Shown here: positions 1 to 36,882 of the stretch, one piece after another
How positions within the stretch are numbered: position 1 is the first letter of the stretch
Layout of the letters: the number at the start of each line of letters is the position of its first letter
Assembly: GCA_022605955.1 (NCBI GenBank)
Contig: JAKCOZ010000265.1
Location: 124,001 to 188,000, forward strand
Direction of reading: 5' to 3'
Origin: Rallus limicola
Taxonomy: Eukaryota; Chordata; Aves; Gruiformes; Rallidae
DNA length: 64,000 nt
Made by a program: the position numbers and the translations under genes
The notes under the pieces: generated by a model
Told to the model about the DNA's origin: nothing
What the model saw: the letters and a program-made list of their open reading frames with translations, nothing else
Database searches by the model: none

Positions 1-142
1 GCCCCTGTCACTTTGGCTCTCAGCCTTTTCCTTTGCCTGGAAAGAGGGAACATGCCTGGAACCTCCTACAGTGCTTTTCTCGGCCCTAGCAGACTGCAGT
101 TCAAAACATGCTAAACGTCCAGCAATAACTCCCAAAGTAAAG

Positions 143-167
143 AAGCTAGGCCTGAAAGGCATAGCTT
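143..167. repeat. Monomer hairpin, 25-nt dyad (present in nearly every monomer)
   Basis: AAGCTA pairs with TAGCTT (6 bp). A G-A mismatch follows, then GCCT pairs with AGGC (4 bp) around a GAA loop. The dyad recurs in each monomer 198 bp apart. It is the exact symmetry centre of the 71-nt palindromes at the 25 insert sites, so it probably seeded them. A C-to-A variant (AGGCATG instead of AGGCCTG) breaks one inner pair and marks the left flank of nearly all inserts. Confidence 0.85.
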
Positions 168-184
168 GTCTGAAACCTCCTAAC
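150..184. repeat. Internal diverged subrepeat, copy 1
   Basis: This stretch runs from GCCTGAAAGG to CTGAAACCTCCTAAC. It aligns with 233-268 in the same monomer at 25 of 35 positions plus one gap. The shared core is CTGRAACCTCCTA. This suggests the 198-bp unit grew from an older, shorter unit. Confidence 0.6.
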
Positions 185-232
185 AGGACACACGAGCAGC
201 CCCTGTCACTTTGGCTCTCAGCCTTTTCCTTT

Positions 233-268
233 GCCTGGAAAGAGGGAACATGCCTGGAACCTCCTACG
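233..268. repeat. Internal diverged subrepeat, copy 2
   Basis: This stretch runs from GCCTGGAAAG to CTGGAACCTCCTACG and is the partner of 150-184, offset about 84 bp. It is the purine-rich part of the monomer. Confidence 0.6.
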
Positions 269-1410
269 GTGCTTTTCTCGGCCCTAGCAGACTGCAGTTC
301 AAAACATGCTAAACGTCCAGCAATAACTCCCAAAGTAAAGAAGCTAGGCCTGAAAGGCATAGCTTGTCTGAAACCTCCTAACAGGACACACGAGCAGCCC
401 CTGTCACTTTGGCTCTCAGCCTTTTCCTTTGCCTGGAAAGAGGGAACATGCCTGGAACCTCCTACGGTGCTTTTCTCGGCCCTAGCAGACTGCAGTTCAA
501 AACATGCCAAACGTCCAGCAATATCTCCCAAAGTAAAGAAGCTAGGCCTGAAAGGCATAGCTTGTCTGAAACCTCCTAACAGGACACCCGAGCAGACCCT
601 GTCACTTTGGCTCTCAGCCTTTTCCTGTGCCTGGAAAGAGGGAACATGCCTGGAACCTCCTACGGTGCTTTTCTCGGCCCTAGCAGACTGCAGTTCAAAA
701 CATGCTAAACGTCCAGCAATAACTCCCAAAGTAAAGAAGCTAGGCCTGAAAGGCATAGCTTGTCTGAAACCTCCTAACAGGACACATGAGCAGCACCTGT
801 CACTTTGGCTCTCATCCTTTTCCTTTGCCTGGAAAGAGGGAACATGCCTGGAACCTCCTACGGTGCTTTTCTCGGCCCTAGCAGACTGCAGTTCAAAACA
901 TGCTAAACGTCCAGCAATAACTCCCAAAGTAAAGAAGCTAGGCCTGAAAGGCATAGCTTGTCTGAAACCTCCTAACAGGACACACGAGCAGACCCTGTCA
1001 CTTTGGCTCTCAGCCTTTTCCTTTGCCTGGAAAGAGGGAACATGCCTGGAACCTCCTACGGTGCTTTTCTGGGCCCTAGCAGACTGCAGTTCAAAACATG
1101 CTAAACGTCCAGCAATAACTCCCAAAGTAAAGAAGCTAGGCCTGAAAGTCATAGCTTGTCTGAAACCTCCTAACAGGACACACGAGCAGACCCTGTCACT
1201 TTGGCTCTCAGCCTTTTCCTTTGCCTGGAAAGAGGGAACATGCCTGGAACCTCCTACGGTGCTTTTCTCGGCCCTAGCAGACTGCTATTCAAAACATGCT
1301 AAACGTCCAGCAATAACTCCCAAAGTAAAGAAGCTAGGCCTGAAAGGCATAGCTTGTCTGAAACCTCCTAACAGGACACACGAGCAGACCCTGTCACTTT
1401 GGCTCTCAGC

Positions 1411-1424
1411 CTTTTCATTGCCTG
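1411..1424. other. Single-base deletion in a monomer
   Basis: CTTTTCATTGCC replaces the usual CTTTTCCTTTGCC, so the monomer is 197 bp. It is one of only three length changes in the window that are not the 47-bp insert, and it lies next to a T/C homopolymer-like tract. Sequencing error is possible. Confidence 0.8.
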
Positions 1425-2145
1425 GAAAGAGGGAACATGCCTGGAACCTCCTACGGTGCTTTTCTCGGCCCTAGCAGACTGCAGTTCAAAACATGCTAAA
1501 CGTCCAGCAATAACTCCCAAAGTAAAGAAGCTAGGCCTGAAAGGCATAGCTTGTCTGAAACCTCCTAAAAGGACAAACGAGCAGACCCTGTCGCTTTGGC
1601 ACTCAGCCTTTTCCTTTGCCTGGAAAGAGGTAACATGCCTGGAACCTCCTACGGTGCTTTTCTCGGCCCTAGCAGACTGCAGTTCAAAACATGCTAAACG
1701 TCCAGCAATAACTCCCAAAGTAAAGAAGCTAGGCCTGAAAGGCATAGCTTGTCTGAAACCTCCTAAAAGGACACACGAGCAAACCCTTTCACTTTGGCTC
1801 TCAGCTTCTTCCTTTGCTTGGAAAGAGGGAACATGCCTGGAACCTCCTACGGTGCTTTTCTCGGCCCTAGCAGACTGCAGCTCAAAACATGCTAAACGTA
1901 TAGCAATAACTCCCAAAGTAAAGAAGCTAGGCCTGAAAGGCATAGCTTGTCTGAAACCTCCTAACAGGAAACACGAGCAGACCCTGTCACTTTGGCTCTC
2001 AGCCTTTTCCTGTGCCTGGAAAGAGGGAACATGCCTGGAACCTCCTACGGTGCTTTTCTCGGCCCTAGCAGACTGCAGTTCAAAACATGCTAAACGTCCA
2101 GCAATAACTCCCAAAGTAAAGAAGCTAGGCATGAAAGGCATAGCT

Positions 2146-2216
2146 TGTCCTGTTAGGAGGTTTCAGACAAGCTAGGCCTGAAAGGCATAGCTTGTCTGAA
2201 ACCTCCTAACAGGACA
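2146..2216. repeat. Palindromic insert 1 (71-nt hairpin, reference copy)
   Basis: The left arm 2146-2174 is the exact reverse complement of the right arm 2188-2216 (29 bp). Inside are a G2175-A2187 mismatch, GCCT/AGGC (2176-2179 with 2183-2186) and the loop GAA (2180-2182). Compared with a normal monomer, 47 bp are added (about 2124-2170). These are a second copy of 25 bp around the monomer hairpin plus 22 bp in inverted orientation. The left copy carries AGGCATG and the right copy AGGCCTG. Confidence 0.95.
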
Positions 2217-5200
2217 CACGAGCAGACCCTGTCACTTTGGCTCTCAGCCTTTTCCTTTGCCTGGAAAGAGGGAACATGCCTGGAACCTCCTACGGTGCTT
2301 TTCTCGGCCCTAGCAGACTGCAGTTCAAAACATGCTAAACGTCCAGCAATAACTCCCAAAGTAAAGAAGCGAGGCCTGAAAGGCATAGCTTGTCTGAAAC
2401 CTCCTAACAGGACACACGAGCAGCCCCTGTCACTTTGGCTCTCAGCCTTTTCCTTTGCCTGGAAAGAGGGAACATGCCTGGAACCTCCTACAGTGCTTTT
2501 CTCGGCCCTAGCAGACTGCAGTTCAAAACATGCTAAACGTCCAGCAATAACTCCCAAAGTAAAGAAGCTAGGCCTGAAAGGCATAGCTTGTCTGAAACCT
2601 CCTAACAGGACACACGAGCAGCCCCTGTCACTTTGGCTCTCAGCCTTTTCCTTTGCCTGGAAAGAGGGAACATGCCTGGAACCTCCTACGGTGCTTTTCT
2701 CGGCCCTAGCAGACTGCAGTTCAAAACATGCTAAACGTCCAGCAATAACTCCCAAAGTAAAGAAGCTAGGCCTGAAAGGCATAGCTTGTCTGAAACCTCC
2801 TAACAGGACACACGAGCAGCCCCTGTCACTTTGGCTCTCAGCCTTTTCCTTTGCCTGGAAAGAGGGAACATGCCTGGAACCTCCTACGGTGCTTTTCTCG
2901 GCCCTAGCAGACTGCAGTTCAAAACATGCCAAACGTCCAGCAATATCTCCCAAAGTAAAGAAGCTAGGCCTGAAAGGCATAGCTTGTCTGAAACCTCCTA
3001 ACAGGACACACGAGCAGACCCTGTCACTTTGGCTCTCAGCCTTTTCCTTTGCCTGGAAAGAGGGAACATGCCTGGAACCTCCTACGGTGCTTTTCTCGGC
3101 CCTAGCAGACTGCAGTTCAAAACATGCTAAACGTCCAGCAATAACTCCCAAAGTAAAGAAGCGAGGCCTGAAAGGCATAGCTTGTCTGAAACCTCCTAAC
3201 AGGACACACGAGCAGCCCCTGTCACTTTGGCTCTCAGCCTTTTCCTTTGCCTGGAAAGAGGGAACATGCCTGGAACCTCCTACAGTGCTTTTCTCGGCCC
3301 TAGCAGACTGCAGTTCAAAACATGCTAAACGTCCAGCAATAACTCCCAAAGTAAAGAAGCTAGGCCTGAAAGGCATAGCTTGTCTGAAACCTCCTAACAG
3401 GACACACGAGCAGCCCCTGTCACTTTGGCTCTCAGCCTTTTCCTTTGCCTGGAAAGAGGGAACATGCCTGGAACCTCCTACGGTGCTTTTCTCGGCCCTA
3501 GCAGACTGCAGTTCAAAACATGCTAAACGTCCAGCAATAACTCCCAAAGTAAAGAAGCTAGGCCTGAAAGGCATAGCTTGTCTGAAACCTCCTAACAGGA
3601 CACACGAGCAGCCCCTGTCACTTTGGCTCTCAGCCTTTTCCTTTGCCTGGAAAGAGGGAACATGCCTGGAACCTCCTACGGTGCTTTTCTCGGCCCTAGC
3701 AGACTGCAGTTCAAAACATGCCAAACGTCCAGCAATATCTCCCAAAGTAAAGAAGCTAGGCCTGAAAGGCATAGCTTGTCTGAAACCTCCTAAGAGGACA
3801 CCCGAGCAGACCCTGTCACTTTGGCTCTCAGCCTTTTCCTGTGCCTGGAAAGAGGGAACATGCCTGGAACCTCCTACGGTGCTTTTCTCGGCCCTAGCAG
3901 ACTGCAGTTCAAAACATGCTAAACGTCCAGCAATAACTCCCAAAGTAAAGAAGCTAGGCCTGAAAGGCATAGCTTGTCTGAAACCTCCTAACAGGACACA
4001 TGAGCAGCACCTGTCACTTTGGCTCTCATCCTTTTCCTTTGCCTGGAAAGAGGGAACATGCCTGGAACCTCCTACGGTGCTTTTCTCGGCCCTAGCAGAC
4101 TGCAGTTCAAAACATGCTAAACGTCCAGCAATAACTCCCAAAGTAAAGAAGCTAGGCCTGAAAGGCATAGCTTGTCTGAAACCTCCTAACAGGACACACG
4201 AGCAGACCCTGTCACTTTGGCTCTCAGCCTTTTCCTTTGCCTGGAAAGAGGGAACATGCCTGGAACCTCCTACGGTGCTTTTCTGGGCCCTAGCAGACTG
4301 CAGTTCAAAACATGCTAAACGTCCAGCAATAACTCCCAAAGTAAAGAAGCTAGGCCTGAAAGTCATAGCTTGTCTGAAACCTCCTAACAGGACACACGAG
4401 CAGACCCTGTCACTTTGGCTCTCAGCCTTTTCCTTTGCCTGGAAAGAGGGAACATGCCTGGAACCTCCTACGGTGCTTTTCTCGGCCCTAGCAGACTGCT
4501 ATTCAAAACATGCTAAACGTCCAGCAATAACTCCCAAAGTAAAGAAGCTAGGCCTGAAAGGCATAGCTTGTCTGAAACCTCCTAACAGGACACACGAGCA
4601 GACCCTGTCACTTTGGCTCTCAGCCTTTTCCTTTGCCTGGAAAGAGGGAACATGCCTGGAACCTCCTACGGTGCTTTTCTCGGCCCTAGCAGACTGCAGT
4701 TCAAAACATGCTAAACGTCCAGCAATAACTCCCAAAGTAAAGAAGCTAGGCCTGAAAGGCATAGCTTGTCTGAAACCTCCTAACAGGACACACGAGCAGA
4801 CCCTGTCACTTTGGCTCTCAGCCTTTTCCTTTGCCTGGAAAGAGGGAACATGCCTGGAACCTCCTACAGTGCTTTTCTCGGCCCTAGCAGACTGCAGTTC
4901 AAAACATGCTAAACGTCCAGCAATAACTCCCAAAGTAAAGAAGCTAGGCCTGAAAGGCATAGCTTGTCTGAAACCTCCTAAAAGGACAAACGAGCAGACC
5001 CTGTCGCTTTGGCACTCAGCCTTTTCCTTTGCCTAGAAAGAGGTAACATGCCTGGAACCTCCTACGGTGCTTTTCTCGGCCCTAGCAGACTGCAGTTCAA
5101 AACATGCTAAACGTCCAGCAATAACTCCCAAAGTAAAGAAGCTAGGCCTGAAAGGCATAGCTTGTCTGAAACCTCCTAACAGGACACACGAGCAAACCCT

Positions 5201-5587
5201 TTCACTTTGGCTCTCAGCTTCTTCCTTTGCTTGGAAAGAGGGAACATGCCTGGAACCTCCTACGGTGCTTTTCTCGGCCCTAGCAGACTGCAGCTCAAAA
5301 CATGCTAAACGTATAGCAATAACTCCCAAAGTAAAGAAGCTAGGCCTGAAAGGCATAGCTTGTCTGAAACCTCCTAACAGGAAACACGAGCAGACCCTGT
5401 CACTTTGGCTCTCAGCCTTTTCCTGTGCCTGGAAAGAGGGAACATGCCTGGAACCTCCTACGGTGCTTTTCTCGGCCCTAGCAGACTGCAGTTCAAAACA
5501 TGCTAAACGTCCAGCAATAACTCCCAAAGTAAAGAAGCTAGGCATGAAAGGCATAGCTTGTCCTGTTAGGAGGTTTCAGACAAGCTA
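2175..5587. repeat. Higher-order repeat, 3,413 bp, copy 1
   Basis: The unit is 17 monomers plus the 47-bp insert. Marker monomers in order are GAAGCGAGG (2368), CTACAGTG (2489), AATATCTCCC (2945), GAAGCGAGG (3160), AATATCTCCC (3735), CTCATCC (4026), TTCTGGGCC (4282), GCTATTC (4498), AAAAGGACAAACG (4979), GCCTAGAAAG (5032), and CGTATAGC (5311). All recur 3,413 bp later. AAGAGGACACCC near 3791 distinguishes this copy. Confidence 0.9.
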
Positions 5588-5629
5588 GGCCTGAAAGGCA
5601 TAGCTTGTCTGAAACCTCCTAACAGGACA
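5559..5629. repeat. Palindromic insert 2
   Basis: Same 29-bp perfect arms and centre as insert 1, with the AGGCATG marker to the left. It lies 3,413 bp after insert 1. Confidence 0.95.
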
Positions 5630-8600
5630 CACGAGCAGACCCTGTCACTTTGGCTCTCAGCCTTTTCCTTTGCCTGGAAAGAGGGAACATGCCTGGAACC
5701 TCCTACGGTGCTTTTCTCGGCCCTAGCAGACTGCAGTTCAAAACATGCTAAACGTCCAGCAATAACTCCCAAAGTAAAGAAGCGAGGCCTGAAAGGCATA
5801 GCTTGTCTGAAACCTCCTAACTGGACACACGAGCAGCCCCTGTCACTTTGGCTCTCAGCCTTTTCCTTTGCCTGGAAAGAGGGAACATGCCTGGAACCTC
5901 CTACAGTGCTTTTCTCGGCCCTAGCAGACTGCAGTTCAAAACATGCTAAACGTCCAGCAATAACTCCCAAAGTAAAGAAGCTAGGCCTGAAAGGCATAGC
6001 TTGTCTGAAACCTCCTAACAGGACACACGAGCAGCCCCTGTCACTTTGGCTCTCAGCCTTTTCCTTTGCCTGGAAAGAGGGAACATGCCTGGAACCTCCT
6101 ACGGTGCTTTTCTCGGCCCTAGCAGACTGCAGTTCAAAACATGCTAAACGTCCAGCAATAACTCCCAAAGTAAAGAAGCTAGGCCTGAAAGGCATAGCTT
6201 GTCTGAAACCTCCTAACAGGACACACGAGCAGCCCCTGTCACTTTGGCTCTCAGCCTTTTCCTTTGCCTGGAAAGAGGGAACATGCCTGGAACCTCCTAC
6301 GGTGCTTTTCTCGGCCCTAGCAGACTGCAGTTCAAAACATGCCAAACGTCCAGCAATATCTCCCAAAGTAAAGAAGCTAGGCCTGAAAGGCATAGCTTGT
6401 CTGAAACCTCCTAACAGGACACACGAGCAGACCCTGTCACTTTGGCTCTCAGCCTTTTCCTTTGCCTGGAAAGAGGGAACATGCCTGGAACCTCCTACGG
6501 TGCTTTTCTCGGCCCTAGCAGACTGCAGTTCAAAACATGCTAAACGTCCAGCAATAACTCCCAAAGTAAAGAAGCGAGGCCTGAAAGGCATAGCTTGTCT
6601 GAAACCTCCTAACAGGACACACGAGCAGCCCCTGTCACTTTGGCTCTCAGCCTTTTCCTTTGCCTGGAAAGAGGGAACATGCCTGGAACCTCCTACAGTG
6701 CTTTTCTCGGCCCTAGCAGACTGCAGTTCAAAACATGCTAAACGTCCAGCAATAACTCCCAAAGTAAAGAAGCTAGGCCTGAAAGGCATAGCTTGTCTGA
6801 AACCTCCTAACAGGACACACGAGCAGCCCCTGTCACTTTGGCTCTCAGCCTTTTCCTTTGCCTGGAAAGAGGGAACATGCCTGGAACCTCCTACGGTGCT
6901 TTTCTCGGCCCTAGCAGACTGCAGTTCAAAACATGCTAAACGTCCAGCAATAACTCCCAAAGTAAAGAAGCTAGGCCTGAAAGGCATAGCTTGTCTGAAA
7001 CCTCCTAACAGGACACACGAGCAGCCCCTGTCACTTTGGCTCTCAGCCTTTTCCTTTGCCTGGAAAGAGGGAACATGCCTGGAACCTCCTACGGTGCTTT
7101 TCTCGGCCCTAGCAGACTGCAGTTCAAAACATGCCAAACGTCCAGCAATATCTCCCAAAGTAAAGAAGCTAGGCCTGAAAGGCATAGCTTGTCTGAAACC
7201 TCCTAACAGGACACCCGAGCAGACCCTGTCACTTTGGCTCTCAGCCTTTTCCTGTGCCTGGAAAGAGGGAACATGCCTGGAACCTCCTACGGTGCTTTTC
7301 TCGGCCCTAGCAGACTGCAGTTCAAAACATGCTAAACGTCCAGCAATAACTCCCAAAGTAAAGAAGCTAGGCCTGAAAGGCATAGCTTGTCTGAAACCTC
7401 CTAACAGGACACATGAGCAGCACCTGTCACTTTGGCTCTCATCCTTTTCCTTTGCCTGGAAAGAGGGAACATGCCTGGAACCTCCTACGGTGCTTTTCTC
7501 GGCCCTAGCAGACTGCAGTTCAAAACATGCTAAACGTCCAGCAATAACTCCCAAAGTAAAGAAGCTAGGCCTGAAAGGCATAGCTTGTCTGAAACCTCCT
7601 AACAGGACACACGAGCAGACCCTGTCACTTTGGCTCTCAGCCTTTTCCTTTGCCTGGAAAGAGGGAACATGCCTGGAACCTCCTACGGTGCTTTTCTGGG
7701 CCCTAGCAGACTGCAGTTCAAAACATGCTAAACGTCCAGCAATAACTCCCAAAGTAAAGAAGCTAGGCCTGAAAGTCATAGCTTGTCTGAAACCTCCTAA
7801 CAGGACACACGAGCAGACCCTGTCACTTTGGCTCTCAGCCTTTTCCTTTGCCTGGAAAGAGGGAACATGCCTGGAACCTCCTACGGTGCTTTTCTCGGCC
7901 CTAGCAGACTGCTATTCAAAACATGCTAAACGTCCAGCAATAACTCCCAAAGTAAAGAAGCTAGGCCTGAAAGGCATAGCTTGTCTGAAACCTCCTAACA
8001 GGACACACGAGCAGACCCTGTCACTTTGGCTCTCAGCCTTTTCCTTTGCCTGGAAAGAGGGAACATGCCTGGAACCTCCTACGGTGCTTTTCTCGGCCCT
8101 AGCAGACTGCAGTTCAAAACATGCTAAACGTCCAGCAATAACTCCCAAAGTAAAGAAGCTAGGCCTGAAAGGCATAGCTTGTCTGAAACCTCCTAACAGG
8201 ACACACGAGCAGACCCTGTCACTTTGGCTCTCAGCCTTTTCCTTTGCCTGGAAAGAGGGAACATGCCTGGAACCTCCTACAGTGCTTTTCTCGGCCCTAG
8301 CAGACTGCAGTTCAAAACATGCTAAACGTCCAGCAATAACTCCCAAAGTAAAGAAGCTAGGCCTGAAAGGCATAGCTTGTCTGAAACCTCCTAAAAGGAC
8401 AAACGAGCAGACCCTGTCGCTTTGGCACTCAGCCTTTTCCTTTGCCTAGAAAGAGGTAACATGCCTGGAACCTCCTATGGTGCTTTTCTCGGCCCTAGCA
8501 GACTGCAGTTCAAAACATGCTAAACGTCCAGCAATAACTCCCAAAGTAAAGAAGCTAGGCCTGAAAGGCATAGCTTGTCTGAAACCTCCTAACAGGACAC

Positions 8601-9000
8601 ACGAGCAAACCCTTTCACTTTGGCTCTCAGCTTCTTCCTTTGCTTGGAAAGAGGGAACATGCCTGGAACCTCCTACGGTGCTTTTCTCGGCCCTAGCAGA
8701 CTGCAGCTCAAAACATGCTAAACGTATAGCAATAACTCCCAAAGTAAAGAAGGTAGGCCTGAAAGGCATAGCTTGTCTGAAACCTCCTAACAGGAAACAC
8801 GAGCAGACCCTGTCACTTTGGCTCTCAGCCTTTTCCTGTGCCTGGAAAGAGGGAACATGCCTGGAACCTCCTACGGTGCTTTTCTCGGCCCTAGCAGACT
8901 GCAGTTCAAAACATGCTAAACGTCCAGCAATAACTCCCAAAGTAAAGAAGCTAGGCATGAAAGGCATAGCTTGTCCTGTTAGGAGGTTTCAGACAAGCTA
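5588..9000. repeat. Higher-order repeat, 3,413 bp, copy 2
   Basis: Nearly identical to 2175-5587. The few differences I see are AACTGGACAC near 5821 (AACAGGACAC in copy 1), AACAGGACACCC near 7205 (AAGAGGACACCC), CTATGGTG near 8478 (CTACGGTG), and AAGGTAGG near 8753 (AAGCTAGG). A handful of changes over 3.4 kb implies a recent duplication. Confidence 0.92.
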
Positions 9001-9042
9001 GGCCTGAAAGGCATAGCTTGTCTGAAACCTCCTAACAGGACA
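8972..9042. repeat. Palindromic insert 3
   Basis: Perfect arms. The right flank reads ACACCCGAG rather than ACACACGAG, as also at insert 5. Confidence 0.95.
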
Positions 9043-11423
9043 CCCGAGCAGACCCTGTCACTTTGGCTCTCAGCCTTTTCCTTTGCCTGGAAAGAGGGAA
9101 CATGCCTGGAACCTCCTACGGTGCTTTTCTCGGCCCTAGCAGACTGCAGTTCAAAACATGCTAAACGTCCAGCAATAACTCCCAAAGTAAAGAAGCGAGG
9201 CCTGAAAGGCATAGCTTGTCTGAAACCTCCTAACAGGACACACGAGCAGCCCCTGTCACTTTGGCTCTCAGCCTTTTCCTTTGCCTGGAAAGAGGGAACA
9301 TGCCTGGAACCTCCTACGGTGCTTTTCTCGGCCCTAGCAGACTGCAGTTCAAAACATGCTAAACGTCCAGCAATAACTCCCAAAGTAAAGAAGCTAGGCC
9401 TGAAAGGCATAGCTTGTCTGAAACCTCCTAACAGGACACACGAGCAGCCCCTGTCACTTTGGCTCTCAGCCTTTTCCTTTGCCTGGAAAGAGGGAACATG
9501 CCTGGAACCTCCTACGGTGCTTTTCTCGGCCCTAGCAGACTGCAGTTCAAAACATGCTAAACGTCCAGCAATAACTCCCAAAGTAAAGAAGCTAGGCCTG
9601 AAAGGCATAGCTTGTCTGAAACCTCCTAACAGGACACACGAGCAGCCCCTGTCACTTTGGCTCTCAGCCTTTTCCTTTGCCTGGAAAGAGGGAACATGCC
9701 TGGAACCTCCTACGGTGCTTTTCTCGGCCCTAGCAGACTGCAGTTCAAAACATGCTAAACGTCCAGCAATAACTCCCAAAGTAAAGAAGCTAGGCCTGAA
9801 AGGCATAGCTTGTCTGAAACCTCTTAACAGGACACACGAGCAGACCCTGTCACTTTGGCTCTCAGCCTTTTCCTTTGCCTGGAAAGAGGGAACATGCCTG
9901 GAACCTCCTACGGTGCTTTTCTCGGCCCTAGCAGACTGCAGTTCAAAACATGCTAAACGTCCAGCAATAACTCCCAAAGTAAAGAAGCTAGGCATGAAAG
10001 GCATAGCTTGTCTGAAACCTCCTAACATGACACACGAGCAGCCCCTGTCACTTTGGTTCTCAGCCTTTTCCTTTGCCTGGAAAGAGGGAACATGCCTGGA
10101 ACCTCCTACGGTGCTTTTCTCGGCCCTAGCAGACTGCAGTTCAAAACATGCTAAACGTCCAGCAATAACTCCCAAAGTAAAGAAGCTAGGCCTGAAAGGC
10201 ATAGCTTGTCTGAAACCTCCTAACAGGACACACGAGCAGACCCTGTCACTTTGGCTCTCAGCCTTTTCCTTTGCCTGGAAAGAGGGAACATGCCTGGAAC
10301 CTCCTACGGTGCTTTTCTCGGCCCTAGCAGACTGCAGTTCAAAACATGCTAAACGTCCAGCAATAACTCCCAAAGTAAAGAAGCTAGGCCTGAAAGGCAT
10401 AGCTTGTCTGAAACCTCCTAACAGGACACACAAGCAGACCCTGTCACTTTGGCTCTCAGCCTTTTCCTTTGCCTGGAAAGAGGGAACATGCCTGGAACCT
10501 CCTACGGTGCTTTTCTCGGCCCTAGCAGACTGCAATTCAAAACATGCTAAACGTCCAGCAATAACTCCCAAAGTAAAGAAGCTAGGCCTGAAAGGCATAG
10601 CTTGTCTGAAACCTCCTAACAGGACACACGAGCAAACCCTTTAACTTTGGCTCTCAGCTTTTTCCTTTGCTTGGAAAGAGGGAACATGCCTGGAACCTCC
10701 TACGGTGCTTTTCTCGGCCCTAGCAGACTGCAGCTCAAAACATGCTAAACGTATAGCAATAACTCCCAAAGTAAAGAAGCTAGGCCTGAAAGGCATAGCT
10801 TGTCTGAAACCTCCTAACAGGACACACGAGCAGACCCTGTCACTTTGGCTCTCAGCCTTTTCCTTTGCCTGGAAAGAGGGAACATGCCTGGAACCTCCTA
10901 CGGTGCTTTTCTCGGCCCTAGCAGACTGCAGTTCAAAACATGCTAAACGTCCAGCAATATCTCCCAAAGTAAAGAAGCTAGGCCTGAAAGGCATAGCTTG
11001 TCTGAAACCTCCTAACAGGACACACGAGCAGACCCTGTCACTTTGCCTCTCAGCCTTTTCCTGTGCCTGGAAAGAGGGAACATGCCTGGAACCTCCTACG
11101 GTGCTTTTCTCGGCCCTAGCAGACTGCAGTTCAAAACATGCTAAACGTCCAGCAATAACTCCCAAAGTAAAGAAGCTAGGACTGAAAGGCATAGCTTGTC
11201 TGAAACCTCCTAACAGGACACATGAGCAGCCCCTGTCACTTTGGCTCTCAGCCTTTTCCTTTGCCTGGAAAGAGGGAACATGCCTGGAACCTCCTACGGT
11301 GCTTTTCTCGGACCTAGCAGACTGCAGTTCAAAACATGCTAAACGTCCAGCAATAACTCCCAAAGTAAAGAAGCTAGGCATGAAAGGCATAGCTTGTCCT
11401 GTTAAGAGGTTTCAGACAAGCTA
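9001..11423. repeat. Block of 12 monomers plus insert (2,423 bp), parent of 12461-14289
   Basis: Markers in order are GAAGCGAGG (9195), CCTCTTAAC (9831), AGGCATG without an insert (9991), ACATGACAC (10026), CACAAGCAG (10429), CTGCAATTC (10533), CCTTTAAC (10639), CGTATAGC (10749), AATATCTCCC (10957), TTTGCCTCTCAG (11043), TAGGACTG (11179), and CGGACCTAG (11309). The same order recurs at 12461-14289 with three fewer monomers. Confidence 0.85.
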
Positions 11424-11465
11424 GGCCTGAAAGGCTTAGCTTGTCTGAAACCTCCTAACAGGACA
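11395..11465. repeat. Palindromic insert 4 (one arm mismatch)
   Basis: The left arm reads GTTAAGAGG instead of GTTAGGAGG, giving one mismatch. The centre reads AAAGGCTTAGC instead of AAAGGCATAGC. Both changes are shared with insert 6. Confidence 0.93.
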
Positions 11466-12460
11466 CACGAGCAGACCCTGTCACTTTGGCTCTCAGCCTT
11501 TTCCTTTGCCTGGAAAGAGGGAACATGCCTGGAACCTCCTACGGTGCTTTTCTCGGCCCTAGCAGACTGCAGTTCAAAACATGCTAAACGTCCAGCAATA
11601 ACTCCCAAAGTAAAGAAGCGAGGCCTGAAAGGCATAGCTTGTCTGAAACCTCCTAACAGGACACACGAGCAGACCCTGTCACTTTGGCTCTCAGCCTTTT
11701 CCTTTGCCTGGAAAGAGGGAACATGCCTGGAACCTCCTACAGTGCTTTTCTCGGCCCTAGCAGACTGCAGTTCAAAACATGCTAAACGTCCAGCAATAAC
11801 TCCCAAAGTAAAGAAGCTAGGCCTGAAAGGCATAGCTTGTCTGAAACCTCCTAAAAGGACAAACGAGCAGACCCTGTCGCTTTGGCACTCAGCCTTTTCC
11901 TTTGCCTAGAAAGAGGTAACATGCCTGGAACCTCCTACGGTGCTTTTCTCGGCCCTAGCAGACTGCAGTTCAAAACATGCTAAACGTCCAGCAATAACTC
12001 CCAAAGTAAAGAAGCTAGGCCTGAAAGGCATAGCTTGTCTGAAACCTCCTAACAGGACACACGAGCAAACCCTTTCACTTTGGCTCTCAGCTTCTTCCTT
12101 TGCTTGGAAAGAGGGAACATGCCTGGAACCTCCTACGGTGCTTTTCTCGGCCCTAGCAGACTGCAGCTCAAAACATGCTAAACGTATAGCAATAACTCCC
12201 AAAGTAAAGAAGCTAGGCCTGAAAGGCATAGCTTGTCTGAAACCTCCTAACAGGAAACACGAGCAGACCCTGTCACTTTGGCTCTCAGCCTTTTCCTGTG
12301 CCTGGAAAGAGGGAACATGCCTGGAACCTCCTACGGTGCTTTTCTCGGCCCTAGCAGACTGCAGTTCAAAACATGCTAAACGTCCAGCAATAACTCCCAA
12401 AGTAAAGAAGCTAGGCATGAAAGGCATAGCTTGTCCTGTTAGGAGGTTTCAGACAAGCTA
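11424..12460. repeat. Truncated copy of the 3,413-bp unit (1,037 bp)
   Basis: It begins with the GAAGCGAGG monomer (11618). It then jumps to the end of the unit: CTACAGTG (11738), AAAAGGACAAACG (11852), GCCTAGAAAG (11905), CTTCTTCC (12089), and CGTATAGC (12184). The length difference from 3,413 is exactly 12 monomers, as expected for an unequal exchange or deletion in register. Confidence 0.88.
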
Positions 12461-12502
12461 GGCCTGAAAGGCATAGCTTGTCTGAAACCTCCTAACAGGA
12501 CA
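12432..12502. repeat. Palindromic insert 5
   Basis: Perfect arms. It is followed by ACACCCGAG, like insert 3. Confidence 0.95.
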
Positions 12503-14289
12503 CCCGAGCAGACCCTGTCACTTTGGCTCTCAGCCTTTTCCTTTGCCTGGAAAGAGGGAACATGCCTGGAACCTCCTACGGTGCTTTTCTCGGCCCTAGC
12601 AGACTGCAGTTCAAAACATGCTAAACGTCCAGCAATAACTCCCAAAGTAAAGAAGCGAGGCCTGAAAGGCATAGCTTGTCTGAAACCTCCTAACAGGACA
12701 CACGAGCAGCCCCTGTCACTTTGGCTCTCAGCCTTTTCCTTTGCCTGGAAAGAGGGAACATGCCTGGAACCTCCTACGGTGCTTTTCTCGGCCCTAGCAG
12801 ACTGCAGTTCAAAACATGCTAAACGTCCAGCAATAACTCCCAAAGTAAAGAAGCTAGGCCTGAAAGGCATAGCTTGTCTGAAACCTCCTAACAGGACACA
12901 CGAGCAGCCCCTGTCACTTTGGCTCTCAGCCTTTTCCTTTGCCTGGAAAGAGGGAACATGCCTGGAACCTCCTACGGTGCTTTTCTCGGCCCTAGCAGAC
13001 TGCAGTTCAAAACATGCTAAACGTCCAGCAATAACTCCCAAAGTAAAGAAGCTAGGCCTGAAAGGCATAGCTTGTCTGAAACCTCCTAACAGGACACACG
13101 AGCAGACCCTGTCACTTTGGCTCTCAGCCTTTTCCTTTGCCTGGAAAGAGGGAACATGCCTGGAACCTCCTACGGTGCTTTTCTCGGCCCTAGCAGACTG
13201 CAGTTCAAAACATGCTAAACGTCCAGCAATAACTCCCAAAGTAAAGAAGCTAGGCCTGAAAGGCATAGCTTGTCTGAAACCTCCTAACAGGACACACAAG
13301 CAGACCCTGTCACTTTGGCTCTCAGCCTTTTCCTTTGCCTGGAAAGAGGGAACATGCCTGGAACCTCCTACGGTGCTTTTCTCGGCCCTAGCAGACTGCA
13401 ATTCAAAACATGCTAAACGTCCAGCAATAACTCCCAAAGTAAAGAAGCTAGGCCTGAAAGGCATAGCTTGTCTGAAACCTCCTAACAGGACACACGAGCA
13501 AACCCTTTAACTTTGGCTCTCAGCTTTTTCCTTTGCTTGGAAAGAGGGAACATGCCTGGAACCTCCTACGGTGCTTTTCTCGGCCCTAGCAGACTGCAGC
13601 TCAAAACATGCTAAACGTATAGCAATAACTCCCAAAGTAAAGAAGCTAGGCCTGAAAGGCATAGCTTGTCTGAAACCTCCTAACAGGACACACGAGCAGA
13701 CCCTGTCACTTTGGCTCTCAGCCTTTTCCTTTGCCTGGAAAGAGGGAACATGCCTGGAACCTCCTACGGTGCTTTTCTCGGCCCTAGCAGACTGCAGTTC
13801 AAAACATGCTAAACGTCCAGCAATATCTCCCAAAGTAAAGAAGCTAGGCCTGAAAGGCATAGCTTGTCTGAAACCTCCTAACAGGACACACGAGCAGACC
13901 CTGTCACTTTGCCTCTCAGCCTTTTCCTGTGCCTGGAAAGAGGGAACATGCCTGGAACCTCCTACGGTGCTTTTCTCGGCCCTAGCAGACTGCAGTTCAA
14001 AACATGCTAAACGTCCAGCAATAACTCCCAAAGTAAAGAAGCTAGGACTGAAAGGCATAGCTTGTCTGAAACCTCCTAACAGGACACATGAGCAGCCCCT
14101 GTCACTTTGGCTCTCAGCCTTTTCCTTTGCCTGGAAAGAGGGAACATGCCTGGAACCTCCTACGGTGCTTTTCTCGGACCTAGCAGACTGCAGTTCAAAA
14201 CATGCTAAACGTCCAGCAATAACTCCCAAAGTAAAGAAGCTAGGCATGAAAGGCATAGCTTGTCCTGTTAAGAGGTTTCAGACAAGCTA
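12461..14289. repeat. Block of 9 monomers plus insert (1,829 bp), deletion derivative of 9001-11423
   Basis: It shares the ACACCCGAG start, GAAGCGAGG (12655), CACAAGCAG (13296), CTGCAATTC (13398), CCTTTAAC (13505), CGTATAGC (13616), AATATCTCCC (13823), TTTGCCTCTCAG (13909), TAGGACTG (14044), and CGGACCTAG (14175). The right part aligns at an offset of 2,866. Three adjacent monomers of the parent are missing, including the CCTCTTAAC and ACATGACAC types. Confidence 0.87.
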
Positions 14290-14331
14290 GGCCTGAAAGG
14301 CTTAGCTTGTCTGAAACCTCCTAACAGGACA
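14261..14331. repeat. Palindromic insert 6 (one arm mismatch)
   Basis: GTTAAGAGG in the left arm and AAAGGCTTAGC at the centre are the same two changes as insert 4. The pair was therefore copied with its surrounding block. Confidence 0.93.
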
Positions 14332-14930
14332 CACGAGCAGACCCTGTCACTTTGGCTCTCAGCCTTTTCCTTTGCCTGGAAAGAGGGAACATGCCTGGAA
14401 CCTCCTACGGTGCTTTTCTCGGCCCTAGCAGACTGCAGTTCAAAACATGCTAAACGTCCAGCAATAACTCCCAAAGTAAAGAAGCGAGGCCTGAAAGGCA
14501 TAGCTTGTCTGAAACCTCCTAACAGGACACACGAGCAGCCCCTGTCACTTTGGCTCTCAGCCTTTTCCTTTGCCTGGAAAGAGGGAACATGCCTGGAACC
14601 TCCTACGGTGCTTTTCTCGGCCCTAGCAGACTGCAGTTCAAAACATGCTAAACGTCCAGCAATAACTCCCAAAGTAAAGAAGCTAGGCCTGAAAGGCATA
14701 GCTTGTCTGAAACCTCCTAACAGGACACACGAGCAGACCCTGTCACTTTGGTTCTCAGCCTTTTCCTTTGCCTGGAAAGAGGGAACATGCCTGGAACCTC
14801 CTACGGTGCTTTTCTCGGCCCTAGCAGACTGCAGTTCAAAACATGCTAAACGTCCAGCAATAACTCCCAAAGTAAAGAAGCTAGGCATGAAAGGCATAGC
14901 TTGTCCTGTTAGGAGGTTTCAGACAAGCTA
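14290..14930. repeat. Block of 3 monomers plus insert (641 bp)
   Basis: It contains one GAAGCGAGG monomer (14484) and one TTTGGTTCTC monomer (14748). It is a minimal block of the same length as those at 57422, 60533 and 61174, but with different markers. Confidence 0.85.
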
Positions 14931-14972
14931 GGCCTGAAAGGCATAGCTTGTCTGAAACCTCCTAACAGGACA
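14902..14972. repeat. Palindromic insert 7
   Basis: Perfect arms and standard centre, with the AGGCATG marker to the left. Confidence 0.95.
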
Positions 14973-16561
14973 CACGAGCAGACCCTGTCACTTTGGCTCT
15001 CAGCCTTTTCCTTTGCCTGGAAAGAGGGAACATGCCTGGAACCTCCTACGGTGCTTTTCTCGGCCCTAGCAGACTGCAATTCAAAACATGCTAAACGTCC
15101 AGCAATAACTCCCAAAGTAAAGAAGCTAGGCCTGAAAGGCATAGCTTGTCTGAAACCTCCTAACATGACACACGAGCAGCCCCTGTCACTTTGGTTCTCA
15201 GCCTTTTCCTTTGCCTGGAAAGAGGGAACATGCCTGGAACCTCCTACGGTGCTTTTCTCGGCCCTAGCAGACTGCAGTTCAAAACATGCTAAACGTCCAG
15301 CAATAACTCCCAAAGTAAAGAAGCTAGGCCTGAAAGGCATAGCTTGTCTGAAACCTCCTAACAGGACACACGAGCAGCCCCTGTCACTTTGGCTCTCAGC
15401 CTTTTCCTTTGCCTGGAAAGAGGGAACATGCCTGGAACCTCCTACGGTGCTTTTCTCGGCCCTAGCAGACTGCAGTTCAAAACATGCTAAACGTCCAGCA
15501 ATAACTCCCAAAGTAAAGAAGCTAGGCCTGAAAGGCATAGCTTGTCTGAAACCTCCTAACATGACACACGAGCAGCCCCTGTGACTTTGGTTCTCAGCCT
15601 TTTCCTTTGCCTGGAAAGAGGGAACATGCCTGGAACCTCCTACGGTGCTTTTCTCGGCCCTAGCAGACTGCAGTTCAAAACATGCTAAACGTCCAGCAAT
15701 AACTCCCAAAGTAAAGAAGCTAGGCCTGAAAGGCATAGCTTGTCTGAAACCTCCTAACAGGACACACGAGCAGACCCTGTCACTTTGGCTCTCAGCCTTT
15801 TCCTTTGCCTGGAAAGAGGGAACATGCCTGGAACCTCCTACGGTGCTTTTCTCGGCCCTAGCAGACTGCAATTCAAAACATGCTAAACGTCCAGCAATAA
15901 CTCCCAAAGTAAAGAAGCTAGGCCTGAAAGGCATAGCTTGTCTGAAACCTCCTAACATGACACACGAGCAGCCCCTGTCACTTTGGTTCTCAGCCTTTTC
16001 CTTTGCCTGGAAAGAGGGAACATGCCTGGAACCTCCTACGGTGCTTTTCTCGGCCCTAGCATACTGCAGTTCAAAACATGCTAAACGTCCAGCAATAACT
16101 CCCAAAGTAAAGAAGCTAGGCATGAAAGGCATAGCTTGTCTGAAACCTCCTAACATGACACACGAGCAGCCCCTGCGACTTTGGTTCTCAGCCTTTTCCT
16201 TTGCCTGGAAAGAGGGAACATGCCTGGAACCTCCTACGGTGCTTTTCTCGGCCCTAGCAGACTGCAGCTCAAAACATGCTAAACGTATAGCAATAACTCC
16301 CAAAGTAAAGAAGCTAGGCCTGAAAGGCATAGCTTGTCTGAAACCTCCTAACAGGACACACGAGCAGACCCTGTCACTTTGGCTCTCAGCCTTTTCCTGT
16401 GCCTGGAAAGAGGGAACATGCCTGGAACCTCCTACGGTGCTTTTCTCGGCCCTAGCAGACTGCAGTTCAAAACATGCTAAACGTCCAGCAATAACTCCCA
16501 AAGTAAAGAAGCTAGGCATGAAAGGCATAGCTTGTCCTGTTAGGAGGTTTCAGACAAGCTA
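14931..16561. repeat. Block of 8 monomers plus insert (1,631 bp), rich in ACATGACAC monomers
   Basis: The ACATGACAC type recurs at about 15172, 15559, 15955 and 16153, each followed by TTTGGTTCTC. One copy has GTGACTTTGG (15581) and another GCGACTTTGG (16174) in place of GTCACTTTGG. CTAGCATACTG near 16057 is private. A CGTATAGC monomer lies at 16284. Confidence 0.85.
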
Positions 16562-16603
16562 GGCCTGAAAGGCATAGCTTGTCTGAAACCTCCTAACAGG
16601 ACA
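16533..16603. repeat. Palindromic insert 8
   Basis: Perfect arms and standard centre. Confidence 0.95.
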
Positions 16604-18786
16604 CACGAGCAGACCCTGTCACTTTGGCTCTCAGCCTTTTCCTTTGCCTGGAAAGAGGGAACATGCCTGGAACCTCCTACGGTGCTTTTCTCGGCCCTAG
16701 CAGACTGCAGTTCAAAACATGCTAAACGTCCAGCAATAACTCCCAAAGTAAAGAAGCGAGGCCTGAAAGGCATAGCTTGTCTGAAACCTCCTAACAGGAC
16801 AAACGAGCAGCCCCTGTCACTTTGGCTCTCAGCCTTTTCCTTTGCCTGGAAAGAGGGAACATGCCTGGAACCTCCTACGGTGCTTTTCTCGGCCCTAGCA
16901 GACTGCAGTTCAAAACATGCTAAACGTCCAGCAATAACTCCCAAAGTAAAGAAGCTAGGCCTGAAAGGCATAGCTTGTCTGAAACCTCCTAACAGGACAC
17001 ACGAGCAGCCCCTGTCACTTTGGCTCTCAGCCTTTTCCTTTGCCTGGAAAGAGGGAACATGCCTGGAACCTCCTACGGTGCTTTTCTCGGCCCTAGCAGA
17101 CTGCAGTTCAAAACATGCTAAACGTCCAGCAATAACTCCCAAAGTAAAGAAGCTAGGCCTGAAAGGCATAGCTTGTCTGAAACCTCCTAACAGGACACAC
17201 GAGCAGCCCCTGTCACTTTGGCTCTCAGCCTTTTCCTTTGCCTGGAAAGAGGGAACATGCCTGGAACCTCCTACGGTGCTTTTCTCGGCCCTAGCAGACT
17301 GCAGTTCAAAACATGCTAAACGTCCAGCAATAACTCCCAAAGTAAAGAAGCTAGGCCTGAAAGGCATAGCTTGTCTGAAACCTCTTAACAGGACACACGA
17401 GCAGACCCTGTCACTTTGGCTCTCAGCCTTTTCCTTTGCCTGGAAAGAGGGAACATGCCTGGAACCTCATACGGTGCTTTTCTCGGCCCTAGCAGACTGC
17501 AGTTCAAAACATGCTAAACGTCCAGCAATAACTCCCAAAGTAAAGAAGCTAGGCATGAAAGGCATAGCTTGTCTGAACCCTCCTAACATGACACACGAGC
17601 AGCCCCTGTCACTTTGGTTCTCAGCCTTTTCCTTTGCCTGGAAAGAGGGAACATGCCTGGAACCTCCTACGGTGCTTTTCTCGGCCCTAGCAGACTGCAG
17701 TTCAAAACATGCTAAACGTCCAGCAATAACTCCCAAAGTAAAGAAGCTAGGCCTGAAAGGCATAGCTTGTCTGAAACCTCCTAACAGGACACACGAGCAG
17801 ACCCTGTCACTTTGGCTCTCAGCCTTTTCCTTTGCCTGGAAAGAGGGAACATGCCTGGAACCTCCTACGGTGCTTTTCTCGGCCCTAGCAGACTGCAGTT
17901 CAAAACATGCTAAACGTCCAGCAATAACTCCCAAAGTAAAGAAGCTAGGCCTGAAAGGCATAGCTTGTCTGAAACCTCCTAACAGGACACACGAGCAGAC
18001 CCTTTAACTTTGGCTCTCAGCTTTTTCCTTTGCTTGGAAAGAGGGAACATGCCTGGAACCTCCTACGGTGCTTTTCTCGGCCCTAGCAGACTGCAGCTCA
18101 AAACATGCTAAACGTATAGCAATAACTCCCAAAGTAAAGAAGCTAGGCCTGAAAGGCATAGCTTGTCTGAAACCTCCTAACAGGACACACGAGCAGACCC
18201 TGTCACTTTGGCTCTCAGCCTTTTCCTTTGCCTGGAAAGAGGGAACATGCCTGGAACCTCCTACGGTGCTTTTCTCGGCCCTAGCAGACTGCAGTTCAAA
18301 ACATGCTAAACGTCCAGCAATATCTCCCAAAGTAAAGAAGCTAGGCCTGAAAGGCATAGCTTGTCTGAAACCTCCTAACAGGACACACGAGCAGACCCTG
18401 TCACTTTGGCTCTCAGCCTTTTCCTGTGCCTGGAAAGAGGGAACATGCCTGGAACCTCCTACGGTGCTTTTCTCGGCCCTAGCAGACTGCAGTTCAAAAC
18501 ATGCTAAACGTCCAGCAATAACTCCCAAAGTAAAGAAGCTAGGCCTGAAAGGCATAGCTTGTCTGAAACCTCCTAACAGGACACATGAGCAGCACCTGTC
18601 ACTTTGGCTCTCAGCCTTTTCCTTTGCCTGGAAAGAGGGAACATGCCTGGAACCTCCTACGGTGCTTTTCTCGGCCCTAGCAGACTGCAGTTCAAAACAT
18701 GCTAAACGTCCAGCAATAACTCCCAAAGTAAAGAAGCTAGGCATGAAAGGCATAGCTTGTCCTGTTAGGAGGTTTCAGACAAGCTA
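16562..18786. repeat. Block of 11 monomers plus insert (2,225 bp)
   Basis: Markers are GAAGCGAGG (16755), GGACAAACG (16797), CCTCTTAAC (17381), CCTCATACGG (17465), AGGCATG without an insert and CTGAACCCTCC (17551-17582), ACATGACAC (17586), CCTTTAAC (18001), CGTATAGC (18113), AATATCTCCC (18320), and GAGCAGCACC (18587). Confidence 0.85.
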
Positions 18787-18828
18787 GGCCTGAAAGGCTT
18801 AGCTTGTCTGAAACCTCCTAACAGGACA
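18758..18828. repeat. Palindromic insert 9
   Basis: Perfect outer arms. The centre reads AAAGGCTTAGC, so the innermost A-T pair of the stem is lost. The same centre is seen at inserts 4, 6 and 10. Confidence 0.94.
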
Positions 18829-20813
18829 CACGAGCAGACCCTGTCACTTTGGCTCTCAGCCTTTTCCTTTGCCTGGAAAGAGGGAACATGCCTGGAACCT
18901 CCTACGGTGCTTTTCTCGGCCCTAGCAGACTGCAGTTCAAAACATGCTAAACGTCCAGCAATAACTCCCAAAGTAAAGAAGCTAGGCCTGAAAGGCATAG
19001 CTTGTCTGAAACCTCCTAACAGGACACACGAGCAGACCCTGTCACTTTGGTTCTCAGCCTTTTCCTTTGCCTGGAAAGAGGGAACATGCCTGGAACCTCC
19101 TACGGTGCTTTTCTCGGCCCTAGCAGACTGCAGTTCAAAACATGCTAAACGTCCAGCAATAACTCCCAAAGTAAAGAAGCTAGGCATGAAAGGCATAGCT
19201 TGTCTGAAACCTCCTAACAGGACACACGAGCAGACCCTGTCACTTTGGCTCTCAGCCTTTTCCTTTGCCTGGAAAGAGGGAACATGCCTGGAACCTCCTA
19301 CGGTGCTTTTCTCGGCCCTAGCAGACTGCAGTTCAAAACATGCTAAACGTCCAGCAATAACTCCCAAAGTAAAGAAGCTAGGCCTGAAAGGCATAGCTTG
19401 TCTGAAACCTCCTAACAGGACACACGAGCAGACCCTGTCACTTTGGTTCTCAGCCTTTTCCTTTGCCTGGAAAGAGGGAACATGCCTGGAACCTCCTACG
19501 GTGCTTTTCTCGGCCCTAGCAGACTGCAGTTCAAAACATGCTAAACGTCCAGCAATAACTCCCAAAGTAAAGAAGCTAGGCATGAAAGGCATAGCTTGTC
19601 TGAAACCTCCTAACAGGACACACGAGCAGCCCCTGTCACTTTGGCTCTCAGCCTTTTCCTTTGCCTGGAAAGAGGGAACATGCCTGGAACCTCCTACGGT
19701 GCTTTTCTCGGCCCTAGCAGACTGCAGTTCAAAACATGCTAAACGTCCAGCAATAACTCCCAAAGTAAAGAAGCTAGGCCTGAAAGGCATAGCTTGTCTG
19801 AAACCTCCTAACATGACACACGAGCAGCCCCTGTCACTTTGGTTCTCAGCCTTTTCCTTTGCCTGGAAAGAGGGAACATGCCTGGAACCTCCTACGGTGC
19901 TTTTCTCGGCCCTAGCAGACTGCAGTTCAAAACATGCTAAACGTCCAGCAATAACTCCCAAAGTAAAGAAGCTAGGCCTGAAAGGCATAGCTTGTCTGAA
20001 ACCTCCTAACAGGACACACGAGCAGCCCCTGTCACTTTGGCTCTCAGCCTTTTCCTTTGCCTGGAAAGAGGGAACATGCCTGGAACCTCCTACGGTGCTT
20101 TTCTCGGCCCTAGCAGACTGCAGCTAAAAACATGCTAAACGTATAGCAATAACTCCCAAAGTAAAGAAGCTAGGCCTGAAAGGCATAGCTTGTCTGAAAC
20201 CTCCTAACAGGACACACGAGCAGACCCTGTCACTTTGGCTCTCAGCCTTTTCCTTTGCCTGGAAAGAGGGAACATGCCTGGAACCTCCTACGGTGCTTTT
20301 CTCGGCCCTAGCAGACTGCAGTTCAAAACATGCTAAACGTCCAGCAATATCTCCCAAAGTAAAGAAGCTAGGCCTGAAAGGCATAGCTTGTCTGAAACCT
20401 CCTAACAGGACACACGAGCAGACCCTGTCACTTTGGCTCTCAGCCTTTTCCTGTGCCTGGAAAGAGGGAACATGCCTGGAACCTCCTACGGTGCTTTTCT
20501 CGGCCCTAGCAGACTGCAGTTCAAAACATGCTAAACGTCCAGCAATAACTCCCAAAGTAAAGAAGCTAGGCCTGAAAGGCATAGCTTGTCTGAAACCTCC
20601 TAACAGGACACATGAGCAGCACCTGTCACTTTGGCTCTCAGCCTTTTCCTTTGCCTGGAAAGAGGGAACATGCCTGGAACCTCCTACGGTGCTTTTCTCG
20701 GACCTAGCAGACTGCAGTTCAAAACATGCTAAACGTCCAGCAATAACTCCCAAAGTAAAGAAGCTAGGCATGAAAGGCATAGCTTGTCCTGTTAGGAGGT
20801 TTCAGACAAGCTA
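18787..20813. repeat. Block of 10 monomers plus insert (2,027 bp)
   Basis: It includes two alternating pairs of TTTGGTTCTC and AGGCATG-type monomers (about 19048/19189 and 19444/19579), an ACATGACAC monomer (19811), and CAGCTAAAAACATG near 20122. The 3' part (CGTATAGC at 20148, AATATCTCCC at 20346, GAGCAGCACC at 20614) matches the end of the previous block. Confidence 0.85.
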
Positions 20814-20855
20814 GGCCTGAAAGGCTTAGCTTGTCTGAAACCTCCTAACAGGACA
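20785..20855. repeat. Palindromic insert 10
   Basis: Perfect outer arms with the AAAGGCTTAGC centre. Confidence 0.94.
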
Positions 20856-23632: not shown

Positions 23633-23674
23633 GGCCTGAAAGGCATAGCTTGTCTGAAACCTCCTAACAGGACA
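23604..23674. repeat. Palindromic insert 11
   Basis: Perfect arms. The right flank is CACAAGCAG, a CpG-decay variant of CACGAGCAG. Confidence 0.95.
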
Positions 23675-29600: not shown

Positions 29601-30212
29601 TCCTAACAGGACACACGAGCAGACCCTGTCACTTTGGCTCTCAGCCTTTTCCTTTGCCTGGAAAGAGGGAACATGCCTGGAACCTCCTACGGTGCTTTTC
29701 TCGGCCCTAGCAGACTGCAGTTCAAAACATGCTAAACGTCCAGCAATATCTCCCAAAGTAAAGAAGCTAGGCCTGAAAGGCATAGCTTGTCTGAAAGCTC
29801 CTAACAGGACACACGAGCAGACCCTGTCACTTTGGCTCTCAGCCTTTTCCTTTGCCTGGAAAGAGGGAACATGCCTGGAACCTCCTACGGTGCTTTTCTC
29901 GGCCCTAGCAGACTGCAGTTCAAAACATGCTAAACGTCCAGCAATAACTCCCAAAGTAAAGAAGCTAGGCCTGAAAGGCATAGCTTGTCTGAAACCTCCT
30001 AACAGGACACACGAGCAGACCCTGTCACTTTGGTTCTCAGCCTTTTCCTTTGCCTGGAAAGAGGGAACATGCCTGGAACCTCCTACGGTGCTTTTCTCGG
30101 CCCTAGCAGACTGCAGTTCAAAACATGCTAAACGTCCAGCAATAACTCCCAAAGTAAAGAAGCTAGGCATGAAAGGCATAGCTTGTCCTGTTAGGAGGTT
30201 TCAGACAAGCTA
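23633..30212. repeat. Run of 33 monomers plus insert (6,580 bp, one base short)
   Basis: A long stretch without a palindrome. A cassette of CCTTTAAC, CGTATAGC, AATATCTCCC and GAAAGCTCC monomers occurs at about 24876 and 28043, and again at 29429. The first two cassettes are 3,168 bp (16 monomers) apart. Private changes include GGCTCTAGC near 23764 and ACACCCAAAGTTAAG near 24006. One base is missing near 23724. Confidence 0.85.
23719..23731. other. Single-base deletion in a monomer
   Basis: CTGGAACAGGGAAC replaces CTGGAAAGAGGGAAC, leaving a 197-bp monomer. It falls in the same purine tract as the deletion near 40496. Confidence 0.8.
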
Positions 30213-36840: not shown

Positions 36841-36882
36841 GGCCTGAAAGGCATAGCTTGTCTGAAACCTCCTAACAGGACA
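36812..36882. repeat. Palindromic insert 14
   Basis: Perfect arms and standard centre. Confidence 0.95.

Follow-up and report, generated by a model that had tools for sequence, protein, structure and literature searches.

How does a satellite monomer acquire a near-perfect palindrome, and how does the altered monomer come to occupy 25 places in one array? The window analysed here, 64,000 nucleotides of a Rallus limicola contig (JAKCOZ010000265.1, positions 124,001 to 188,000), presents a satellite length variant whose birth and spread both appear legible in one contiguous array. The birth was probably a templated inverted copy made at a resident hairpin, and the spread seems to have combined block duplication with recombination between units.

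The array and its palindromic units

A 198-bp satellite, repeated head to tail, fills the whole window (1..64000, + strand) as one array. Cut with a fuzzy anchor, the array gives 317 whole units, and these are 198 bp (289 units), 245 bp (24), 197 bp (3) or 244 bp (1) long. Mean divergence from the consensus is 1.1% among the 289 units of 198 bp. The array is satellite DNA in the usual meaning of the term, a long head-to-tail run of homogeneous non-coding units. Positions 140-164 of the ordinary monomer form a 25-bp quasi-palindrome (H), built of 6 bp, a G-A mismatch, 4 bp and a GAA loop. It is followed directly by a 22-bp segment (R) at positions 165-186. Among 198 windows, that of H ranks 71st in mean divergence and 39th in allele number, and strong purifying constraint on H as a whole is not supported by these ranks.

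The sole net length change of more than 1 bp in the array is a 47-bp insert, carried by 25 of the 317 units at one shared place. An earlier sequence-only reading had reported 25 copies with the same breakpoints and the same centre, each adding 25 bp of direct and 22 bp of inverted sequence, and the unit-by-unit comparison agrees with this description. Point changes aside, all 25 units have the layout H1-R'-H2-R, in which R' is the reverse complement of R. The same reading had assigned all 25 to a 245-bp variant. The number stands, but only 24 have that length, the remaining one (unit 40458, 244 bp) having also lost 1 bp near monomer position 41 in a deletion unrelated to the insert. In the first insert unit, H1, the additional direct copy of H with the AGGCATG allele, lies at 2122..2146 (+); R', the inverted 22-bp copy of R, at 2147..2168 (-); H2, the resident H, at 2169..2193 (+); and R, the resident right arm, at 2194..2215 (+). 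R' and R flank H2 to form a 71-nt palindrome, and its centre is the centre of the quasi-palindrome already present in the ordinary monomer. The claim that AGGCATG accompanies the insert in 24 of 25 copies was also confirmed; unit 57871 has AGGCCTG in H1. As evidence of a shared origin, the linked substitution is weaker than claimed. It is not insert-specific, and 11 of the 289 ordinary 198-bp units carry it as well.

The structure first described for the palindrome, a 29-bp stem, a G-A mismatch, 4 bp and a GAA loop, holds for the consensus. Individual copies vary: the 29-bp arms are perfect in 19 of 25, and 13 of 25 combine perfect arms with a canonical tip. All copies lie on the + strand. The thirteen are copies 1 (2146..2216), 2 (5559..5629), 3 (8972..9042), 5 (12432..12502), 7 (14902..14972), 8 (16533..16603), 11 (23604..23674), 12 (30184..30254), 13 (33003..33073), 14 (36812..36882), 15 (40620..40690, in the 244-bp unit), 17 (52198..52268) and 24 (62823..62893). 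A tip variant between perfect arms is found in copies 9 (18758..18828), 10 (20785..20855), 18 (57393..57463), 21 (60504..60574), 23 (61786..61856) and 25 (63068..63138), the last in the unit immediately after that of copy 24. One arm mismatch occurs in copy 16 (42845..42915), and together with a tip variant in copies 4 (11395..11465) and 6 (14261..14331). Two arm mismatches occur in copies 20 (59071..59141) and 22 (61145..61215), and with a tip variant in copy 19 (58034..58104), the one whose H1 reads AGGCCTG.

Folded as single-stranded DNA, copy 1 reaches -39.5 kcal/mol on the + strand and -38.4 kcal/mol on the other strand (z -15 and -13). Shuffles of the + strand average -8.4 kcal/mol and none of 200 folds as well, so the palindrome is not a product of chance. 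An 83-nt control stretch from an ordinary unit gives z -1.6 and -1.1.

The satellite patterns have no match in collections of bacterial and archaeal, viral and plasmid sequences, which tell little about a satellite of this kind. No paper could be tied to a 198/245-bp satellite by repeat length (in titles and abstract openings) or by fragments of the window (in paper texts, few of them from subscription journals).

Probable origin at a resident hairpin

The origin of the insert, for which the sequence-only reading had offered no mechanism, was examined by asking which single switch, consisting of a copy, a jump, a reverse copy and a jump back, converts the consensus unit to the insert unit. If H1 carries C at monomer position 149, a single switch reproduces the layout without mismatch. 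There are 70 solutions, which we read as 35 equivalent breakpoint choices in each of the two monomer copies of the test sequence. The solutions exit after 163-167 (4-nt microhomology), return at 140-146 (6-nt microhomology) and reverse-copy a stretch of 19-29 nt within monomer 187-159. In 24 of 25 insert copies, position 149 is A in H1 and C in H2, and for this observed version there are no single-switch solutions from a C ancestor. One further step is needed, since copying one template twice should yield the same letter. That step would be either a later C>A substitution or a return to a different monomer.

The exact fit points to polymerase fold-back as the physical event. A nascent strand in which R and H had already been copied, this being the presumed direction of synthesis, would fold back at H, primed by H', and copy R in reverse. 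It would then go back to a template and copy H again, converting H-R to H-R'-H-R in a single step. Priming at a hairpin loop by the nascent strand is described for template-switch mutations in passages of PMC8794818. Such mutations are recognised when the new sequence repeats, exactly and in reverse complement, a stretch lying no more than tens of bases away, when a parental sequence without the event is known, and when one event with two switch points accounts for the whole change. The insert contains such a copy, and the array preserves the parental form in its 289 units of 198 bp. A single event covers the whole change with H1=C, but not the observed H1=A from a C ancestor. The palindrome is centred on the best hairpin that the monomer can form. 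Among 2000 mononucleotide shuffles 42 match or beat this hairpin, as do 77 among 2000 dinucleotide shuffles, and thus it exceeds shuffled sequence only modestly (about 2-4% do as well). In our judgement the insert is probably the product of one short template-switch mutation in the monomer, followed by block duplication and recombination, with no function needed. It looks like a neat case of known processes and not like a novel kind of element.

Other origins were weighed against the same evidence. The insertion has an inverted-repeat form, as would be expected of a foldback or MITE-like mobile element, but the foreign sequence with target-site duplication by which such an element is known is lacking. 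With H1=C, all 47 bp derive from the same monomer in exact order with nothing foreign; as observed, the inserted bases are local satellite save for one letter of AGGCATG. Exact 18-mers matching only the inverted consensus form 24 runs, every one within insert units, in a scan for exact matches of that length. Unit 57871, whose R' has two changes, is the only insert unit without such a run. This confinement also speaks against a mobile element, and we find that origin hardly credible. It is very improbable that the units are an assembly or sequencing artefact. Palindromes can be mis-sequenced, and these units were read from the assembly, but insert-specific variants are common to copies with similar flanks (158T in four, 154T.156A in three and 160T in two), and insert units occur in many flank haplotypes. 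Repeated, independent formation of the palindrome at the resident hairpin is conceivable because the hairpin-forming H belongs to the consensus monomer and could have been used more than once. Against recurrence, both breakpoints and the length of R' are common to all 25 copies, and H1=A and 197A are each found in 24 of the 25 insert units. We disfavour this origin as quite improbable.

Within the template-switch reading, the 149A allele may have preceded or followed the insertion. The switch may have returned to another monomer, either a neighbour or a sister; a 149A monomer would then have supplied the left part and a 149C monomer the right part. This presumed source of the AGGCATG allele accounts for H1=A with H2=C in one event, and we give it close to an even chance. 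To the same near-even degree, the 198-bp units with 149A would be relics of the pre-insertion haplotype. The 183T allele is present in 5 of 11 149A units without the insert, compared with 27 of 281 other insert-lacking units (p 0.003), although one flank pattern (177T left, 14T right) recurs in four of the five 149A.183T units, which may be block copies that inflate the association. No insert unit of the 25 carries 183T. The 149A units therefore do not resemble simple excision scars in appearance, because they often have an allele that insert units never have. Some '14T.149A' units also lie in neighbourhoods resembling those of 'INS:14T' units. On the other side, 6 of the 11 149A units lack 183T, and one insert unit (57871) has H1=C.

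Alternatively, 149A may have appeared in H1 only once the insert was in place, which would make the 198-bp units with 149A scars of exact loss through H1-H2 recombination. As 25-bp direct repeats 47 bp apart, H1 and H2 would be a natural substrate for deletion, and a loss would leave A or C according to the crossover point. Scars should, however, retain the downstream 183 and 197 alleles of insert units. Instead, 197C and 183T are found in 7 and 5 of the 11 149A units, respectively, against 1 and 0 of the 25 insert units, and we regard this order as doubtful. The evidence leans towards a return to a different monomer, with counts inflated by block copying. Since 149A units without the insert exist (11 of 289), either order of events may apply. 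One 198-bp unit (35659-35856) carries 149A together with 158C, a change that makes the G-A mismatch of H a G-C pair.

Spread through the array

One origin followed by spread, as proposed in the earlier reading, is supported and is the explanation we favour; the shared breakpoints, the H1 allele (24 of 25), 197A (24 of 25) and the shared flanking blocks all argue for it. The allele 197C is absent from 24 of the 25 insert units, which carry 197A, compared with 173 of the 292 others (Fisher p 0.0001); this bias is best read as a trace of common origin, the 25 units being non-independent owing to shared blocks.

Pairs of insert units share a mean of 0.70 collinear flanking units, compared with 0.29 for random pairs. 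A 17-unit, 3413-bp block containing the insert recurs, at 2228-5640 and at 5641-9053, the two copies agreeing at 3408 of 3413 bases. Other collinear runs extend over 7-14 units with at most one difference per unit. The repeated blocks and collinear runs show that the array has a young higher-order structure. Insert units were also clustered by shared derived alleles, weighted by rarity, across the unit and four units on each side. With thresholds taken from random insert-lacking pairs, they fall into 6 clusters at the 95% threshold and 11 at the 98% threshold. As a result, block duplication alone fails to place all 25 insert units.

For 11 of the 12 variants tested, all four combinations of insert and allele occur (14T, 30G, 68A, 8T, 28T, 173G, 189C, 190T, 191A, 197C and 198A). 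The twelfth, 81A, lacks them, being present in no insert-lacking unit. These combinations make it likely that recombination between units was part of the spread, with recurrent mutation as an alternative for the rarest alleles. Copy 17 has a differing downstream haplotype and is a probable recombinant. The 245-bp unit would have been multiplied by block duplication, while recombination between units would have carried the insert onto other backbones. Five of 105 point variants are as common as the insert (count 25) or commoner, and its gap variation of 0.84 is inside the range of the 14 commonest variants (0.46-1.26). The frequency of the insert is ordinary, and there is no sign of its being favoured.

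Evolution of the Tribolium madens satellite has reportedly also proceeded through inversion and insertion. The statement in the sequence-only reading that no described satellite is built in this way was too strong, as satellites with longer inverted repeats within the monomer have been described. In passages of PMC13081366, these include TmSat2 of T. madens, a 1061-bp satellite of T. brevicornis and a 385-bp satellite of Trichogramma brassicae, with inverted segments of 80, about 300 and about 470 bp, respectively, those of TmSat2 being imperfect. Like the present variant, they have inverted segments inside the repeat unit and could in principle form a hairpin. As far as those passages describe them, their inverted segments are longer and belong to the repeat of the satellite itself, whereas the 71-nt near-perfect palindrome marks a minority variant of 25 in 317 units (PMC13081366). 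A palindromic satellite variant of the same make was not found in the literature, judged mostly on titles and abstract openings. A mechanistic parallel is an insect rRNA insertion made by template switching, the pattern of which indicates recombination among rRNA copies (PMC8794818). In both settings one event reverse-copies a nearby stretch and creates a new stem. Unlike the cases described there, the insert here is hosted by a satellite array, retains an additional direct copy (H1) and is found in 25 of 317 units within 64 kb.

Tip changes, function and the monomer

Insert units carry 22 distinct variants in single-copy coordinates, and 11 of these are absent from every insert-lacking unit. 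Five of the 11 insert-specific substitutions (154, 155, 156, 158 and 160) fall within 7 bp on the 3' side of the palindrome tip, and the binomial p for insert-specific substitutions in H2 overall is 0.008. When 25 insert-lacking units were drawn at random 5000 times, no draw reached five distinct variants in 151-164 (mean 0.33, maximum 2). A scan of any 7-bp window reaches five in 14 of 20000 permutations and, with the linked 154/156 change counted once, reaches four in 227 of 20000. Compared with variants at positions 1-139, Fisher tests give 0.002 for five changes and 0.008 with 154/156 counted once, for a region that was picked after the data had been seen, though a tip is where one would naturally expect changes to be sought, and from tiny counts (155 comes from a single copy, and 156 without 154 from one copy). 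The changes at 154, 155, 156 and 160 break pairs, and 158 A>T falls on the G-A mismatch and stays non-Watson-Crick. None of the five improves the palindrome.

The cluster counts against plain neutral drift, which does not predict it; hairpin processing, relaxed constraint on a spare H and chance are possible readings. Relaxed constraint on the duplicated H2 is a rival because the 3' half of H (151-164) has few variants, only 2 distinct ones across its 14 sites in the 292 insert-lacking units, compared with 63 at 139 sites. Tentatively, and as a possibility to which we give limited weight, the palindrome may form an extruded hairpin or cruciform in germ-line cells and undergo processing at the tip, in which case the array would keep a record of heritable mutagenesis there. 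A natural satellite would then document, in many replicates, how hairpins extrude in heterochromatin. Should the tip hot spot also be present in the rest of the genome, sequence data would suffice to measure hairpin formation in heterochromatin, and the hundreds of insert-lacking units would provide a built-in control. Short inverted repeats with mutable loops are reported from human breast cancers in passages of PMC5737083, with a mean somatic excess of about 1.35-fold. There the excess concerns 4-8-bp spacers and is confined to 7-15-bp arms more than to those of at least 16 bp (PMC5737083). Both systems have excess substitutions around the loop of a hairpin-forming sequence, but the palindrome has a 3-nt loop, 29-bp arms, changes beside the loop and tiny counts, unlike the repeats described there (PMC5737083).

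The palindrome could instead have been retained and spread for a function, as a centromeric cruciform or as a hairpin RNA giving small RNAs against the satellite. The strong fold on both strands fits such a role, as do matches to three microRNA precursor models (E 2e-8 to 2e-5, 1201 bases searched), all of them far below the cut-offs at about half the required scores. A bare long hairpin would presumably give the same matches; the frequency and spacing of the insert resemble those of ordinary point variants; and arm pairing is disrupted by five different substitutions, spread over 6 of the 25 copies and none of them compensated (the one at 160 counts also in the tip cluster). Function is therefore improbable as the cause of retention and is not supported by these sequence patterns, and the insert is presumably neutral. 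A centromeric satellite with functional dyads would be marked by CENP-A association or a CENP-B box, and the site most like such a box departs from it at 5 of 17 positions. An RNA gene was rejected, since the best Rfam match scores 45.2 bits (E 2.3e-8), the family cut-off being 98, and the best matches fall on the hairpin. Earlier work reportedly describes microRNAs born by template switching.

The consensus unit, with a length divisible by 3, has two stop-free frames, one per strand. The longest stop-to-stop frames span 3123 codons (42856-52227, +) and 3120 codons (42852-52214, -), apparently an accident of this divisibility. Synonymous variants make up 27 of 105, compared with neutral expectations of 25.1% and 22.9% for the two open frames. 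A search with a translated three-unit stretch from each frame scored 7989 and 7997 candidates, none of them a relative at E 0.001. A coding reading was rejected on the near-neutral synonymous share and the lack of relatives of either translated stretch.

The observed/expected ratio of CpG in the satellite is 0.33. All 8 CpG bases (CpGs at monomer 66-67, 78-79, 113-114 and 190-191) have transition alleles, compared with 26 of 91 other C/G bases. This decay suggests a host that methylates CpG, as vertebrates do. At monomer 116-117, 18 units carry a linked CC>AT double change, and other adjacent double changes, at 52-53 and 8-9, occur in single units each; these are perhaps small multi-base mutations. 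A weak internal similarity between monomer positions 32-65 and 147-179 (p 0.024, 500 shuffles) weakly suggests an older internal duplication inside the monomer.
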